Shown: positions 16,308 to 21,553 of the stretch, in pieces
How positions within the stretch are numbered: position 1 is the stretch's first letter
Layout: the number at the start of each line of letters is the position of its first letter
Assembly (NCBI RefSeq): GCF_026343335.1
Contig: NZ_JAPELX010000001.1
Location: 6,634,001-6,698,000 of the forward strand
Direction: 5' to 3'
From: Streptomyces sp. NBC_00078
Lineage (GTDB): Bacteria; Actinomycetota; Actinomycetes; Streptomycetales; Streptomycetaceae
Length of the DNA: 64,000 bases
Notes under the pieces: model-generated
The model's input: only the letters and a program-made list of their open reading frames with translations
The model's database searches: none
Told to the model about the DNA's origin: nothing
Translations under genes and position numbers: made by a program

Positions 16308-16510
16308 GATTCACGTAACTACGTCATGCCGAGGAGCGCCGCAAGCCTCCTTCAAGACCCGCGCACACGGTCGTCACGAATCGCCCAACCGAAGCCGCTG
16401 ACTTTGCGATCTCTTTACAACCTGGGTCATGGCTGCCTCGTCTCTTCGCTCGATCAGTGACACAGCCCGCCCGGCCGACTTCCGGGCGGACCGACGAAAG
16501 AGAGCGATTC

Positions 16511-16888
16511 ATGCGCCGAACCGGCCTCAGTGCCTTGGCAGTTGCGTGCACCGCCGTGCTGGCGGGCGCGGTGCCCGCGTTCGCCGACGGGGCGTCCGCG
16601 GCTCCGAGCCCCGTCCCCTCCGCGACCCGCGCGCCCAGCGCCGGCCCCACGTCCGCCCCCGCCGAGAGCACCACCCCGAGCGCCGTGCCGAGTGCGGCCC
16701 CGACCCGGGCGCCGTCGCCCGGTCAGGTCTCCATCGTGCCGAGCGGTGCGCCCAACACCGGTGTGGCGCCGACCTCTTCGGACTCGTCGGGCGCGGGCGC
16801 TCTGATCGGCGGGGGCGCCGCCGCGGCCGTCGCCCTCGGCGGTGGCGCGGTCTTCATCGTGCGCCGCCGGCGGGCGAACGGGGCATGA
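16511..16888 (+). CDS. Small Pro/Ser/Ala-rich surface protein, candidate sortase substrate
   Basis: 125 residues. There is a signal peptide (about 1-26, ending AVPAFA), a low-complexity stalk of Pro, Ser, Ala and Thr (about 28-78), then APNTG at residue 80, a Gly/Ala hydrophobic helix and the terminal RRRRANGA. The layout is that of an LPxTG-type protein with APNTG as a variant sorting motif. The ATG at 16511 follows AGAGCG and gives a clean signal peptide. Its stop codon overlaps the start of the sortase gene (ATGA), which strongly suggests enzyme and substrate are made together. The protein has almost no folded domain, so it may serve as a wall spacer or a scaffold. Confidence 0.8.
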   Translation: MRRTGLSALAVACTAVLAGAVPAFADGASAAPSPVPSATRAPSAGPTSAPAESTTPSAVPSAAPTRAPSPGQVSIVPSGAPNTGVAPTSSDSSGAGALIGGGAAAAVALGGGAVFIVRRRRANGA

Positions 16889-17538
16889 GTCCGCTCTCCA
16901 GGCGCGCCTTCGCCGCCGCGGCGCTCGCCGCGCTCCTCGCGGGCTGCGGCGGCCCGGGCGCCACGAACGGCAACTCCCCGGACGGGAGCCGGGCGAGCGA
17001 CGCGTCGTCCTCCGCCTCGTCGTCCTCTGCACCGTCGTCCTCCGCGCCACCGCACGCCGGGCCGGTGTCCGCGGTGGGGCGATCGACCCCGGTCAGGCTC
17101 CGGATACCGGCCATCGGGGTCGACACCCCGGTCATGAAGCTGGGCCTGGCCGCGGACGGCACCGTGCAGGTGCCGCCGATCGCGGCGCACGACCGCGCGG
17201 GCTGGTACGAACACTCCCCGACGCCGGGGCAGACCGGTCCGTCGGTGATCCTCGGCCATGTCACGGTCGGCGCCTACGGAGACGGGGTCTTCCGGCACCT
17301 GAAGGACCTGCACAAGGGGGAGCGGATCGTGGCGCGCCTGGAGAACGGCACGGCTGCGGTGTTCGCCGTGACCGACGTGCGGACGGTCGCCAAGGCCGCC
17401 TTCCCGTCGAAGGAGGTGTACGGGAACGTGAAGCGGCCGGAGCTGCGGCTGATCACGTGCGGCGGCGAACGGAGCGGTGACGGATACCTCGACAACGTGA
17501 TCGTCTTCGCGGCGCTGAGATCGTCTTCACGGGACTGA
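16885..17538 (+). CDS. Class F-type sortase
   Basis: 217 residues. An N-terminal hydrophobic segment with the lipobox-like LAGCGG (about residues 14-20) and a Ser-rich linker (about 30-60) precede the sortase beta-barrel. The catalytic His is in ILGHVTVG (His125) and the catalytic Cys in LITCGG (Cys192). The catalytic Arg that usually lies 10-15 residues after Cys is not obvious: the segment reads GERSGDGYLDNVIVFA, with Arg only at the third position. This protein could therefore be atypical. It overlaps the upstream substrate gene by four bases. Sortases cleave the sorting motif and transfer the protein to cell-wall peptidoglycan on the outer face of the membrane. Confidence 0.85.
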   Translation: MSPLSRRAFAAAALAALLAGCGGPGATNGNSPDGSRASDASSSASSSSAPSSSAPPHAGPVSAVGRSTPVRLRIPAIGVDTPVMKLGLAADGTVQVPPIAAHDRAGWYEHSPTPGQTGPSVILGHVTVGAYGDGVFRHLKDLHKGERIVARLENGTAAVFAVTDVRTVAKAAFPSKEVYGNVKRPELRLITCGGERSGDGYLDNVIVFAALRSSSRD

Positions 17539-17641
17539 GCCCGTCGAGCCCTTGACCGGCCGGCCGTCGGCCGAATCCAAACCGGGATCCCGGGCCGACG
17601 GAACGTACGCCGTCGGTCCGGGCTCTTCCCCCGTGAGCGTC

Positions 17642-18244
17642 ATGAGTGCCACGTGCGCCACGTGCGCCACGTGCGCCACGTGCGCCACGTGCGCTTTGAG
17701 AGTGGTGAACGCCACGAGTCCCCCCGCAAGTGCCCCACGACCCGGGAGAACGTTGAAACGGTCCCGCGAGAAGGCCGCGTCCGAGCTGTTCGCCGCCCTC
17801 TACCCGCGTCTCGCCGGCTGGGTCCGCCGGCTGGTCGACGACGACGAGACGGCGCATGAGATCGCCTCGGAGGCGTTCACCCGGCTCTGGGCGCGCTGGA
17901 CGGCCGTCGCGGAGCCGCGCGGTTTTCTCTACGTCACCGCGGCCAACCTCGTCCGGGACCACTGGCGCAAGCTGGAGCGCGAACGCAGAGCCGTACGCCG
18001 GGCGACCACCGAGGCCGCGGTGACCCCGCATCCCGAGCAGGCCGACCCCTCGGTGCGCCTGCTCGTGCAGTCCCTCCCGGAACGACTGCGCATCCCGATC
18101 CTCCTGCACTACTACGCTGACATGCCGATCCGGGAGGTGTCCGTGCTCACCGGACGCAAGGAAGGAACCGTCAAGGCCGACCTCCACGCGGCCCGCGAAC
18201 TGCTCCGCGCCCACCTGAGGAGAAGCCTTGATCACACACTCTGA
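17642..18244 (+). CDS. ECF-type RNA polymerase sigma factor
   Basis: About 200 residues from the ATG at 17642, or 163 from the TTG at 17753, which has a better Shine-Dalgarno (GGGAGA). Region 2 is visible as LFAALYPRLAGWVRRLVDDD, HEIASEAFTRLWARW and NLVRDHWRKLERERR; region 4 as SLPERLRIPILLHYYADMPI with the HTH VLTGRKEGTVKADLHAAREL. The gene after it, overlapping by 17 bases, encodes a single-pass membrane protein that may be its regulator. If the ATG is used, the protein begins with a run of Ala-Thr-Cys units from a 9-bp tandem repeat. The target promoters are unknown. Confidence 0.85.
   Translation: MSATCATCATCATCATCALRVVNATSPPASAPRPGRTLKRSREKAASELFAALYPRLAGWVRRLVDDDETAHEIASEAFTRLWARWTAVAEPRGFLYVTAANLVRDHWRKLERERRAVRRATTEAAVTPHPEQADPSVRLLVQSLPERLRIPILLHYYADMPIREVSVLTGRKEGTVKADLHAARELLRAHLRRSLDHTL
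17648..17692 (+). repeat. Five perfect copies of the 9-bp unit GCCACGTGC
   Basis: Each unit contains the palindrome CACGTG. The array lies just after a candidate ATG for the sigma-factor gene and would encode (Ala-Thr-Cys)x5. If the sigma gene starts at 17753, the array is in its leader instead. Confidence 0.9.
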
Positions 18245-18767
18245 CGAGGGCCCGGACCACGACCCCGACGACCCGCTCACCGTCATCCTGCGGCCCCCCG
18301 CCGAACATCTCGGCCCACCCCCCGGCCACTACGAGGCGATCCGCCGCGGCGCGTCCCGCCGCAGGATGCTGCGCGCGGCCGCCGGTGCGGCCCTGACCTG
18401 CGGTGTCGCCGCCCTGGTCGTACTGCCGCTGCGCCTGACGGCCTCCGACGCGCCCGGCTCCCCGACGGTGCCTCTCGCCCCGCCCCCGGCGAGCAGCCCC
18501 TCGAACCCGCCGCCCCGGACGGCGACGCCCGCACCGTCGAGTGCCGGGCCCGGCCAGTCGTCCCGTTCCGCCCCGCCGACCGCCGGACCGACCGCCGGAC
18601 CGACCGCCGGACCGAGCGCCGGACCGACCAGAGAGCCGAGCGCGGCCGAACCGTCCAGCCCCACCGTCGCGCCGGTTACTCCGATACCCTCCCGATCCGC
18701 CTCCGTCCAGCCGTCCGCGCCCGGGTCCCGGGCCGTCGCGACGCCGTCGAGCGCGCCCCGCCGGTAG
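18228..18767 (+). CDS. Single-pass membrane protein, possible partner of the ECF sigma factor
   Basis: 179 residues from a TTG that follows GAGGAGA and overlaps the sigma gene. A short cytoplasmic N-terminus (about 1-45, with SRRRMLRAAAG) is followed by one membrane segment (about 48-70) and a long Pro/Ser/Thr/Ala-rich extracytoplasmic tail carrying the repeat PTAG (from a 12-bp DNA repeat near 18577-18625). No zinc-binding HxxxCxxC motif is present, so it is not a classical ZAS anti-sigma factor. A role in sigma regulation is an inference from overlap and topology. I do not recognise the family. Confidence 0.65.
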   Translation: MITHSDEGPDHDPDDPLTVILRPPAEHLGPPPGHYEAIRRGASRRRMLRAAAGAALTCGVAALVVLPLRLTASDAPGSPTVPLAPPPASSPSNPPPRTATPAPSSAGPGQSSRSAPPTAGPTAGPTAGPSAGPTREPSAAEPSSPTVAPVTPIPSRSASVQPSAPGSRAVATPSSAPRR

Positions 18768-19205
18768 CCACCACGGAAGCGAGGTGGCTCGCGCGGGACG
18801 GTTGTGAACACGTTCTGCGGACCGATCCGCTGCATCCCCTTCCGGTGGACGGTGGCCGGCATGTCCTTCGGCGTCTTCGGCGTCTTCGGTGTGCTCCCGT
18901 CATCTGCACTGCTCCCGCTGTACGTCGTCCGGAAGAAGATCAAGCGACGGGAGACGCTGACCGCTGCCCCGGATCCCGGCCCGGTGGCGCTGCTTGAGGG
19001 CGGCCTGCACGATCCGCTCGGCGAAAAAAGTGTTATCCCGTCAGCCTCCAGCCCGTCTCCCCTCGCGACCCCCGTTTCCCCCACACCCGGGAGCTCCCTT
19101 GCACCGCCCGCACCGGGACCGCACCGTGACCTCGGACATGGCCGCATGCCCGGGCCGAGCTGAGAAGGTGCGGTCGGACGGCGTATGACCTGGGAGGGGG
19201 CAGAC
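18768..19205. other. 438-bp region without a gene I can support
   Basis: A 119-codon open frame (18804-19163) starts with GTG and has a possible membrane segment, but its second half is Pro/Ser-rich and lacks a ribosome binding site, so I do not call it. It contains a short repeat, TTCGGCGTC, three times near 18866-18892. The A-rich stretch GCGAAAAAAGTGTTATCCCG at 19021-19040 may belong to the promoter of the next gene. Confidence 0.5.
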
Positions 19206-20870
19206 GTGGGAGACAGGGCCGGGCGGGAGTGGCGTGCCACCATCGCCGCCGCGCAGGCCGGTGACCGGCACGCGTTGGAGGAACTCGTCGCCGGCTGGCT
19301 GCCGCTGGTCTACAACGTCGTCGGCCGCGCCCTGAACGGCCACGCCGACGTCGACGACGTCGTGCAGGAGACCATGCTGCGGGCCGTCGGCAACCTCGGC
19401 TCACTGCGCGACCCGGACAGCTTCCGGTCCTGGCTGATGGCGATCGCCATGCGGCAGATACTTGACCGGGCGCGCCGCAGAGCCACCCGGCAACTGGACG
19501 AGAGCGCCGCCAGGGAGGCCACCGACTTCGCCGAACTTACCGTGCTGCGACTCCAGTTGGAGGGCCAGCGGCGCGAGGTGGCGGAGGCGGTGCGCTGGCT
19601 GGACGACGAGGACCGCCAACTGCTGTCCCTGTGGTGGCTGGAGGTCGCGGGCGAGCTGACCCGGCGCGACCTGGCGGCGGCCGTCGGCATCAGCCGGCAG
19701 CACGCCGCCGTACGCGTCCAGCGGATGAAGGAACGCCTGGAGACCTCGCGCGGGATCGTGCGCGCACTGGACGGGGCGTGCCCCGCACTGCGGGAGCTGA
19801 CCGGCCGCTGGGACGGGCGGCCCGACTCGGTCTGGCGCAAGCGGCTGGCCCGGCACATCAGGGGCTGCGCCTACTGCGGCGACGCGCGCACGTCCGTCGT
19901 ACCGGCGGAGCGGCTCCTGGTCGGCATCGCGCTCGTACCGGTCCCGGCCGGCTTCACCCTGTCGCTGGCTCTCGGCGGCAAGACGGCGGCGGCCGCCACC
20001 TCCGTCGGCTGGTCCGCCAAGGTGCTCGGCATCCTGGCCAAGCCCGCGGTCGCCGTCACGGCGGCGGCGACCGTCGTCGCGGGCGGCGCGTACGTCGTCA
20101 CGCAGACCCCGGGCACCCCGCCCCCGCACGCGGCGGTCACCCCCACTACGGCGAGCACCCACCGCCCGCCGCCCCCTTCCGCCTCGCCCACGCCCTCCCC
20201 GTCGCCCTCGGTGTCCCCCTCCGTGGCGAAGCAGAAGACCGAGCTCTACGGCAGCGTCGTCGACGCCGTCGACAAGGCGCCCGACCCGGACACCTCGCCC
20301 GGCGCGCTCCCGCACCGGCCCGCGTCCGGCGTCACCAGCACCGGCGGGGCGCACGCCGTGATGAACCACCGCGGCGACAGCGTGACGCTCACCGGCCAGG
20401 GCTATGTCCTGGTCCGCTGGCAGATCTCACCGCAGTACCGGTCGGGCGGCCTGGTCATGCCTGCCTGGACCGGCCTGAAGGGAAAGCTCTTCCACGTGGC
20501 CTCGGGCGGCGGCCGCCGGATGGATGACCACGTCAGCGACACCGACCGCTCCGCCACCGGCATGGGCGACTCGACCGTCGGCTACGCCGTACCGCAGGCC
20601 GGCACCCAGCAGATGTGGCAGAACGAGTACTTCTACCTCGACGGCGGCGTCACCCTCACCGTGAACGAGCGCGGCGCCGACTACGGCCTGAGCGTCTTCC
20701 CGACCACCTGGGACGCGGTGGAGAAGGACGTCACGGCCGGCCCCGACCAGGGCGCGAGGCGCTACGGACTGGTCCGCGACACCGGCAGGGACGACACTCC
20801 GGTCCCGCAGTACGTGACCCGTGCGACGCCGGCCGATCCGGCGACGGTGGCTCAGCGCTCGCGGGTGTAG
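19206..20870 (+). CDS. ECF sigma factor fused to a zinc-finger anti-sigma-like, membrane-anchored C-terminus
   Basis: 554 residues. Residues about 5-85 are sigma region 2 (LPLVYNVVGRAL, DVDDVVQETMLRAVGN, FRSWLMAIAMRQILDRARR); about 125-180 are region 4 (WLDDEDRQLLSLWW and the HTH RRDLAAAVGISRQHAAVRVQ). Near residue 217 HIRGCAYC matches the HX3CX2C signature of ZAS anti-sigma domains. A hydrophobic helix (about 272-296), a Pro/Ser/Thr linker and a 200-residue outer domain with a conserved-looking FYLDGGVTLTVNERG segment follow. So sensor, anchor, anti-sigma-like element and sigma are one chain. GTG at 19206 is preferred to ATG at 19185 because GGAGGGGG is correctly spaced. Its 3' end overlaps the convergent GDPD gene by 19 bases. 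Confidence 0.85.
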   Translation: MGDRAGREWRATIAAAQAGDRHALEELVAGWLPLVYNVVGRALNGHADVDDVVQETMLRAVGNLGSLRDPDSFRSWLMAIAMRQILDRARRRATRQLDESAAREATDFAELTVLRLQLEGQRREVAEAVRWLDDEDRQLLSLWWLEVAGELTRRDLAAAVGISRQHAAVRVQRMKERLETSRGIVRALDGACPALRELTGRWDGRPDSVWRKRLARHIRGCAYCGDARTSVVPAERLLVGIALVPVPAGFTLSLALGGKTAAAATSVGWSAKVLGILAKPAVAVTAAATVVAGGAYVVTQTPGTPPPHAAVTPTTASTHRPPPPSASPTPSPSPSVSPSVAKQKTELYGSVVDAVDKAPDPDTSPGALPHRPASGVTSTGGAHAVMNHRGDSVTLTGQGYVLVRWQISPQYRSGGLVMPAWTGLKGKLFHVASGGGRRMDDHVSDTDRSATGMGDSTVGYAVPQAGTQQMWQNEYFYLDGGVTLTVNERGADYGLSVFPTTWDAVEKDVTAGPDQGARRYGLVRDTGRDDTPVPQYVTRATPADPATVAQRSRV

Positions 20871-21553
20871 CCGCCGTAGCGCAGAGCGCACAGGACATCG
20901 ACGCGGTTGGTCGTGATCGAGTCGACGCCGAGGCCGATGAGGCGGCGCATGGAACGGCGCGTGTCCGGCGTCCACACGGACAGCAGGTAGCCGTCGTGGT
21001 GGACGCGGGCGGCCAGCTCGCGACTGACCAGGGAGAAGCGGTAGTTGAGCCAGCGCGGCTTCACCGCCGAGAGCAGCGCGGGGCGCGGGGGCGCCAGGCT
21101 GGTGCAGGTCAGGGCGATCTCGGCGGACGGGTCGGCGGCGCGGACGGCGAGCATCGCGGCGGAGCCCGCGGTGTAGTAGACGCGCTCGGCCGCCCCGGCC
21201 TCCCGTACGGCGTCCACGACGCGGCGCGCCGCCCGTACGTCCCGTATCCCCGGCAGGTCCAGCATCAGCCGGGTGCCGTCAGCGGCGGCCAGCGCCTCCG
21301 CGAGCGTCGGCACCCGGCCGTCGGTGAGCCCGCGCACCTCGTCCGCCGACAGGGAGCCGAGGGGCCGCTCGTGCTCCCACAGCCGTTTCAGCGTCGCGTC
21401 GTGCAGGAGCACGGGGACACCGTCCTTGGTGAGTCGTACGTCGATCTCGACGGCGTCCGCGCCCCGGTCGAGCGCGGAACGCAGCGAGTCGATCGTGTTC
21501 TCGCGGACGCGGTAGGGGTCGCCGCGGTGGGCCACGGCGGTCACGTTCTGCAT
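20852..21553 (-). CDS. Glycerophosphodiester phosphodiesterase
   Basis: A 233-residue GDPD-family enzyme that hydrolyses glycerophosphodiesters to glycerol 3-phosphate and an alcohol. The family residues are visible: AVAHRGDPYRVRENTIDSL at the N-terminus (HRG and EN pair), the metal-binding AVEIDVRLTKDGVPVLLHDA block, and the C-terminal VWTPDTRRSMRRLIGLGVD with SITTNRVD. It has no signal peptide and is probably cytosolic. It is followed on the same strand by adenosine deaminase 20 bases upstream, although the order suggests the deaminase promoter drives both. Confidence 0.92.
   Translation of the reverse strand: MQNVTAVAHRGDPYRVRENTIDSLRSALDRGADAVEIDVRLTKDGVPVLLHDATLKRLWEHERPLGSLSADEVRGLTDGRVPTLAEALAAADGTRLMLDLPGIRDVRAARRVVDAVREAGAAERVYYTAGSAAMLAVRAADPSAEIALTCTSLAPPRPALLSAVKPRWLNYRFSLVSRELAARVHHDGYLLSVWTPDTRRSMRRLIGLGVDSITTNRVDVLCALRYGGYTRER

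Follow-up and report, generated by a model that had tools for sequence, protein, structure and literature searches.

The window analysed here, the whole 64,000-nucleotide stretch from Streptomyces sp. NBC_00078, carries on its forward strand an uninterrupted open reading frame (ORF) at positions 19185–20870, which encodes 561 amino acids when read from the ATG at 19185; residues of the protein are counted from this ATG. The original prediction placed the start at the GTG at 19206 (19206–20870, forward strand, stop codon included), and this is probably the better start, because 69 of 80 relatives have an in-frame GTG located 2 to 8 codons ahead of Trp16, a conserved residue. The gene encodes a fused ECF sigma factor, in which sigma regions, a zinc module, a membrane helix, and an outer, sensor-like domain form a single polypeptide, as had been predicted. 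The 80 loci kept for comparison, each with a full-length homologue (78 titled Streptomyces and 2 titled “Actinobacteria bacterium”), hold the best 80 of 168 confirmed homologues, with 71% to 89% identity in the best segment; judged from these sequences, the conserved whole-chain architecture is not a chance arrangement. Some congeners no longer have the fused gene but retain remnants of it (L148, L149, and L150), either with an internal deletion or as the C-terminal part alone, the match in L150 being short.

The last codons of the gene (20852–20870) overlap by 19 nt a convergent glycerophosphodiester phosphodiesterase gene on the reverse strand (20852–21553; PF03009, E = 9.4e-39), and conservation of the extreme C-terminus may stem from this overlap. 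A phosphodiesterase homologue lies beside the gene in 78 of the 80 loci, as does an adenosine deaminase gene (likewise 78 of 80), and the phosphodiesterase gene is probably outside the sigma system. At 17552–18244 the window contains a SigE-family-like ECF gene, homologues of which occur in the flanks of 18 of the 80 loci; it overlaps by 17 nt a gene (18228–18767) whose small product has a single hydrophobic stretch, a Pro/Ser-rich tail and no zinc motif, a possible non-zinc anti-sigma partner. Positions 16457–17538 cover a gene for a small, apparently secreted protein that ends in a PNTG-type sorting signal and, after it, a sortase-looking ORF.

Sigma, zinc, and membrane parts of the chain

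Both sigma regions named in the original prediction are present. Region 2 (residues 34–100; 19284–19484) matches PF04542 (E = 3.7e-15), and region 4 with its helix-turn-helix (HTH; about residues 136–186; 19590–19742) lies inside a TIGR02937 sigma70-ECF match (residues 29–186; E = 1e-23) that exceeds the cut-off of that model. The Pfam models of sigma region 4 gave no match in the protein, where generic HTH models alone matched, below cut-off; region 4 is the most conserved part of the chain (mean identity 0.93 over 81 aligned rows, consisting of the window protein and its orthologues). ECF sigma factors are defined by regions 2 and 4 with a short linker between them and no region 3, and the protein belongs to this class.

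The sequence HIRGCAYC (residues 224–231) forms the end of a larger zinc module, Cys199-x24-His224-x3-Cys228-x2-Cys231 (19779–19877), all four residues of which are invariant in 81/81 rows. The two zinc-coordinating cysteines initially counted are thus three in a four-ligand arrangement, with Cys199 as the likely additional ligand, and we infer that this Cys-His-Cys-Cys module binds zinc. Of 83 distinct ORFs from the wider family, 81 have the same C-x24-H-x3-C-x2-C spacing; the remaining two are fragments. The pattern agrees with that of a ZAS domain, four ligands ending in HX3CX2C, the first ligand here being Cys. The term anti-sigma-like, as used for this part, refers to position and ligand pattern only: Pfam zf-HC2 did not match the zinc region of the window protein even at E = 10.

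Two hydrophobic stretches follow, where the original prediction named a single membrane helix. The first (LLVGIALVPVPAGFTLSLAL; residues 244–263; 19914–19973) probably closes the anti-sigma-like module as its final helix, and the second (about residues 284–305; 20034–20099) is probably the membrane helix. A Pro/Ser/Thr-rich linker (20100–20219), the least conserved stretch besides the N-terminus, leads to the outer domain. The full-chain AlphaFold model, in which an anti-sigma fold clasping the sigma regions would show, is poor (mean pLDDT 52.8) and has no confident membrane helix.

The outer domain and its replacements in relatives

The outer domain (residues 346–561; 20220–20867), about 200 residues long in the original prediction, comprises some 215 residues and is well conserved (mean column identity 79% over 46 rows). 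Pfam gave no match for the window's domain and a chance-level match alone in 2 of 46 members. When modelled by itself with AlphaFold, the domain reaches a mean pLDDT of 71.4, with its core (about 30–170) near 85 to 90, and is predicted to have an all-beta core plus one helix. A Foldseek search with this model gave a best E of 0.12, with nothing at 0.001 or better; a further structure comparison gave at best a collagen-binding domain (Z = 3.4, rmsd 3.6 over 78 aligned residues) tied with other rows; and the profile of the domain produced only a chance match among PDB sequences (E = 0.6). The predicted model thus has no convincing structural match in the PDB, and we neither claim nor reject any fold family for it.

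Among 197 genomes of the order, 39 contain the domain, a few of these as fragments only, and some congeners retain just its remnants; among 396 genomes of the phylum, 4 contain it, each a Streptomyces genome. A search of plasmid records with the outer domain alone gave no match. Stand-alone secreted copies adjoin the fused sigma gene in other genera (L140, 4810–5733; L142, 5560–6546). In the two stand-alone copies next to a fused gene (genomes G165 and G023), the start is signal-like and the end hydrophobic with an Arg tail, and the copy at L140 has a LASTG-type end with a below-cut-off match to Gram_pos_anchor (E = 0.0015).

The sigma/zinc core was found in 33 of 41 sampled genomes of the order, with up to 8 copies each, and in 18 of 72,556 plasmid records. 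The genome of the window itself encodes a paralogue that is 54% identical over residues 3–350 and carries AbfB as its outer domain (PF05270, E = 3.4e-42). We assembled 83 distinct ORFs with this core, leaving out one plasmid copy (L106, the same as L094), and clustered 75 of them by their outer parts (at least 150 residues) after 8 short or broken ORFs had been dropped. They fell into eight outer-domain classes, named after representatives: CAP (41 members), the window's domain (9), AbfB (7), Glyco_hydro_cc (6), GH99-like (5), an unassigned class (4), beta-helix with LAxTG (2), and ricin-type lectin (1). AbfB, GH99, Glyco_hydro_cc, and CAP domains thus occupy in other members the position of the window's outer domain. 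Two ORFs of 283 and 294 residues (L212, 5938–6894; L238, 1457–2365) contain the sigma/zinc core with neither membrane helix nor outer domain; each lies near, and opposite to, a full-length member in one genome.

On a tree of the core, the class labels require at least 10 changes, compared with a minimum of 7 for eight classes and a mean of 32.6 for shuffled labels; the outer domains therefore appear to have been mostly inherited with the core and swapped occasionally. The window-type label requires 4 changes, on branches weak enough to be compatible with a single origin. In 6 of the 75 members (4 CAP and 2 window-type) the next gene mirrors the sensor, versus 7 of 3,732 control pairs, so that the mirroring is real and confined to a minority of members.

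The promoter and the predicted regulon

An ECF-type promoter precedes the sigma gene at 19031–19060 (forward strand), consisting of a −35 element TGTTATC (19031–19037), a 16-nt spacer, and a −10 element CGTCTCC (19054–19060). In this it is similar to ECF promoters with CGTC at −10 and a TGT-type −35 element. The pattern TGTTATCN{15,16}CGTC has a single match in the 64-kb window, where 0.03 are expected. Across the orthologues, the upstream consensus reads AAAAA[GC]TGTTATC, a variable spacer, and CGTCTCC; TGTTA[TC] lies within 220 nt of the gene in 70 of 81 rows, with CGTCTCC conserved there too, and 78 of 80 loci have TGTTA[TC]-N15-17-CGTC[TCA]CC no more than 1.7 kb away, one miss having too short an upstream sequence. 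In five loci (L068, L072, L073, L077, and L078) an alginate-lyase-family gene separates the promoter from the sigma gene, with 4 nt shared by the lyase gene and the sigma ORF in L072, and in a sixth (L088) only the last part of the lyase-family gene remains. The promoter is not family-wide, because the exact form lies upstream of only 2 of 73 wider members; a looser pattern was found before 5 of the 73 (shuffled mean 0.32) and the loosest before 10 (shuffled mean 1.1).

Exact sites (TGTTATCN{15,16}CGTCTCC) number 85 in 48 of 197 genomes, versus 0 in every genome for the reversed-pattern control. The full gene is present in 30 of 181 congeners (sigma-plus) and not in the other 151 (sigma-minus), genomes with outer-domain fragments only (G005, G053, G069, and G098) being counted as sigma-minus or outside the 30. 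A non-self exact site is present in 28 of the 30 sigma-plus congeners versus 17 of the 151 sigma-minus ones (Fisher p = 6e-19, with relatedness ignored). The exact self site is present in 23 of the 30 and absent in 7, and all 44 non-self sites of the sigma-plus congeners were read: half of them (22) lie before a gene for a secreted beta-repeat protein, and the other 22 before a gene of the alginate-lyase family.

The lyase-family proteins have LAxTG in 20 of 22 cases and twin Arg near the start in 21 of 22. The beta-repeat start codon lies 5 to 6 nt past the −10 element in 24/24 cases, which suggests that the beta-repeat mRNA is leaderless, and a membrane-anchor-like end with WWPY is present in 24/24 of these proteins. 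The match of the lyase to its family (PF05426; E = 1.8e-15 for L072, the copy tested) does not identify a substrate, and the beta-repeat protein, with an autotransporter-type repeat, matches PATR below cut-off only; polyuronate is therefore a guess. Profiles of both protein families found nothing at E = 1 or better among PDB chains.

In the genome of the window, the second exact site lies before a beta-repeat gene beside a GH43 gene, and a shorter pattern finds four sites, one of them before an FG-GAP gene and one before a truncated lyase remnant. The promoter before this alginate-lyase remnant (L240, 1500–1731) is near perfect and lies about 4.6 kb from the AbfB-type paralogue.

Only co-occurrence and position link the sigma factor to these sites, and we read the whole as a one-component system that amplifies its own expression and controls a small surface-glycan regulon. 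The literature on ECF sigma factors, alginate lyase, and the promoter word in Streptomyces that was covered, mostly outside subscription papers, gave no account of such a regulon.

Proposed mechanism and known systems

We consider it likely that the gene encodes a single-chain transmembrane ECF sigma factor that is inhibited by its zinc module, receives a signal at the outer surface, is released by probable stepwise proteolysis, and drives its own gene together with the lyase-family and beta-repeat genes. Architecture, promoter, and target families are read from the sequence; inhibition, signal, and release we infer. The zinc module would keep the sigma part inactive at the membrane until a signal at the cell surface reaches the outer domain; this signal is most likely a polysaccharide, a product of its breakdown, or a surface protein. 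Release of the sigma part would follow, probably through proteolysis in steps; IutY too is released by proteolysis, which has also been proposed for ECF52/53 (PMC8999054 and PMC5826349). Once free, the sigma part would transcribe its own gene, creating positive feedback, and the genes for the surface-anchored alginate-lyase-family protein and the secreted, membrane-anchored beta-repeat protein.

The direction of the signal depends on topology, since the outer domain would lie inside the cell if both hydrophobic stretches crossed the membrane, and its cue would then be internal. By hydropathy alone the first stretch is indeed the stronger in the window protein (mean Kyte-Doolittle 2.13 at residues 244–263 versus 1.92 at 280–299) and it reaches at least 1.6 in 81/81 orthologue rows, but of the 75 wider relatives 28 have a first stretch under 1.6 and only 10 a second stretch under this value. 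The net charge between the two stretches, +2 or +3 in 81/81 rows, fits an inner loop; the inner flank of the second stretch is more positive than the outer one in 73 of the 75 relatives; and two members with the same sigma/zinc part (L103 and L234) end in an LAxTG-type sorting signal, a hydrophobic tail, and Arg. Because of these sorting signals at the far end, the secreted-type domains that replace the outer domain in other members, the signal-like start and LASTG-type end of the stand-alone copy at L140, and the helix flank charges, we place the last domain outside. A two-pass chain is accordingly very unlikely in our estimate, and the best reading of the sequences is the one membrane helix originally predicted, formed by the second stretch. 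In a redox-sensing reading, as first proposed, oxidation of the cysteines would release zinc and free the sigma part. The three invariant cysteines in their zinc-ligand pattern, the sole cysteines of the protein in 61 of 81 rows, could be cited for it. The HX3CX2C motif, however, occurs in redox-sensing and non-sensing zinc anti-sigma factors alike and is therefore uninformative on this point, and the large conserved outer domain points to an outside signal, as do the predicted targets, which are surface polysaccharide proteins and not thiol-redox genes. We regard redox sensing as extremely improbable, and the original proposal of it as unsupported.

That the sigma part is tethered to the membrane, as the original prediction held, is supported by the sequence and matches the idea published for ECF48/52/53 (PMC8999054). 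It might even act there, as the original prediction also allowed, with a ligand shifting the grip of the zinc module and polymerase being recruited at the membrane, no proteolysis being involved. A single chain, with no separate anti-sigma factor seen, would suit such a course, and conformational switching is thought to operate in other extended ECF factors, according to PMC8999054, which also provides the counter-example of IutY, whose fused anti-sigma part is cut by Prc and RseP. Since the predicted targets lie far from the sigma gene in the genome, action in place seems fairly unlikely to us. It is also conceivable that a different sigma factor uses this promoter and drives the sigma gene and the lyase-family and beta-repeat genes alike; the 17 exact sites in 17 sigma-minus genomes would be expected in that case, two of them preceding the beta-repeat gene. 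Yet 11 of the 16 such sites that were read (G153 was left out) precede other fused sigma factors of the same family (10 CAP-type and 1 beta-helix type), which would explain the sites; of the others, besides the two beta-repeat sites, 2 precede membrane-anchored CAP proteins with no sigma factor and 1 precedes something unrelated. Together with the strong co-occurrence of sites and window-type genes, this makes a foreign promoter quite unlikely, and release of the sigma part onto its own promoter remains the reading that we prefer.

A broader proposal is more tentative. CAP-type sigma factors share a promoter with CAP proteins, and some window-type sigma factors adjoin a wall-anchored copy of their own sensor. 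It is possible, if somewhat doubtful, that the family is a plug-in platform in which one sigma/zinc/membrane core carries interchangeable outer domains, each with a tiny self-amplifying regulon of surface proteins that are at times relatives of the sensor; the sensor would be a stand-in for the surface protein, or a competitor for its ligand, and report the need for more. In the survey of relatives, the outer sensor varies and the core is constant. If our reading of the window's system is right, it offers a compact, re-pluggable path by which a sugar polymer outside the cell acts on transcription, and it could be of use in finding the signals of silent Streptomyces functions and in sensor design.

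A known regulon or signal is rare among one-piece membrane sigma factors. The ECF48, ECF52, and ECF53 groups are described, in PMC8999054 and PMC10766802, as fused to membrane anti-sigma parts with a zinc finger and regulatory extensions, some ECF52 and ECF53 members having predicted glycosyl hydrolase and carbohydrate-binding domains. The window protein is of this general kind, defined by a zinc-finger module, a membrane helix or two, and a long extension within one chain (PMC8999054). The best understood of the three groups, according to that review, is SCO4117 of Streptomyces coelicolor (ECF52), which likewise unites an ECF sigma factor, zinc finger, helix, Pro-rich stretch, and outer domain and for which self-activation was proposed (PMC5826349); its published motif, CSGYN-17bp-SRHA, differs from the TGTTATC/CGTCTCC of the window. 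The window genome encodes a SCO4117-like protein (L110), by its architecture probably the SCO4117 orthologue, which matches zf-HC2 (E = 2e-05) and NPCBM (E = 9.1e-32), families that neither the zinc region nor the outer part of the window protein matches. BLAST of the window protein against L110 gave no significant match (best E = 3.8), and the window protein is therefore not ECF52 by sequence. Membership of ECF52 was accordingly rejected, there being no significant match to L110, no zf-HC2, and no Pfam carbohydrate-binding outer domain. SCO4895, a candidate counterpart in S. coelicolor, was dropped, as the passages covered of PMC9205884 give no distinguishing basis.

ECF53 (type WP_030276194.1) and ECF48 factors, compared by their descriptions only, share the fused membrane anti-sigma part with zinc finger and the extensions, whereas the window's outer domain belongs to no Pfam family. 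IutY of Pseudomonas putida (ECF243) also combines sigma and anti-sigma parts in one chain and is freed by proteolysis (PMC8999054), but it serves Gram-negative iron uptake and has no soluble outer sensor of the window's kind. The clostridial SigI/RsgI systems use carbohydrate-binding domains outside the cell to control a sigma factor that serves polysaccharide enzymes (PMC10766802). There, sigma and anti-sigma factors are two proteins and the sigma factor is of another class. Fused membrane ECF factors are thus already known, and what the window adds is a new variant, whose predicted promoter and two-target regulon can be tested directly with purified protein.
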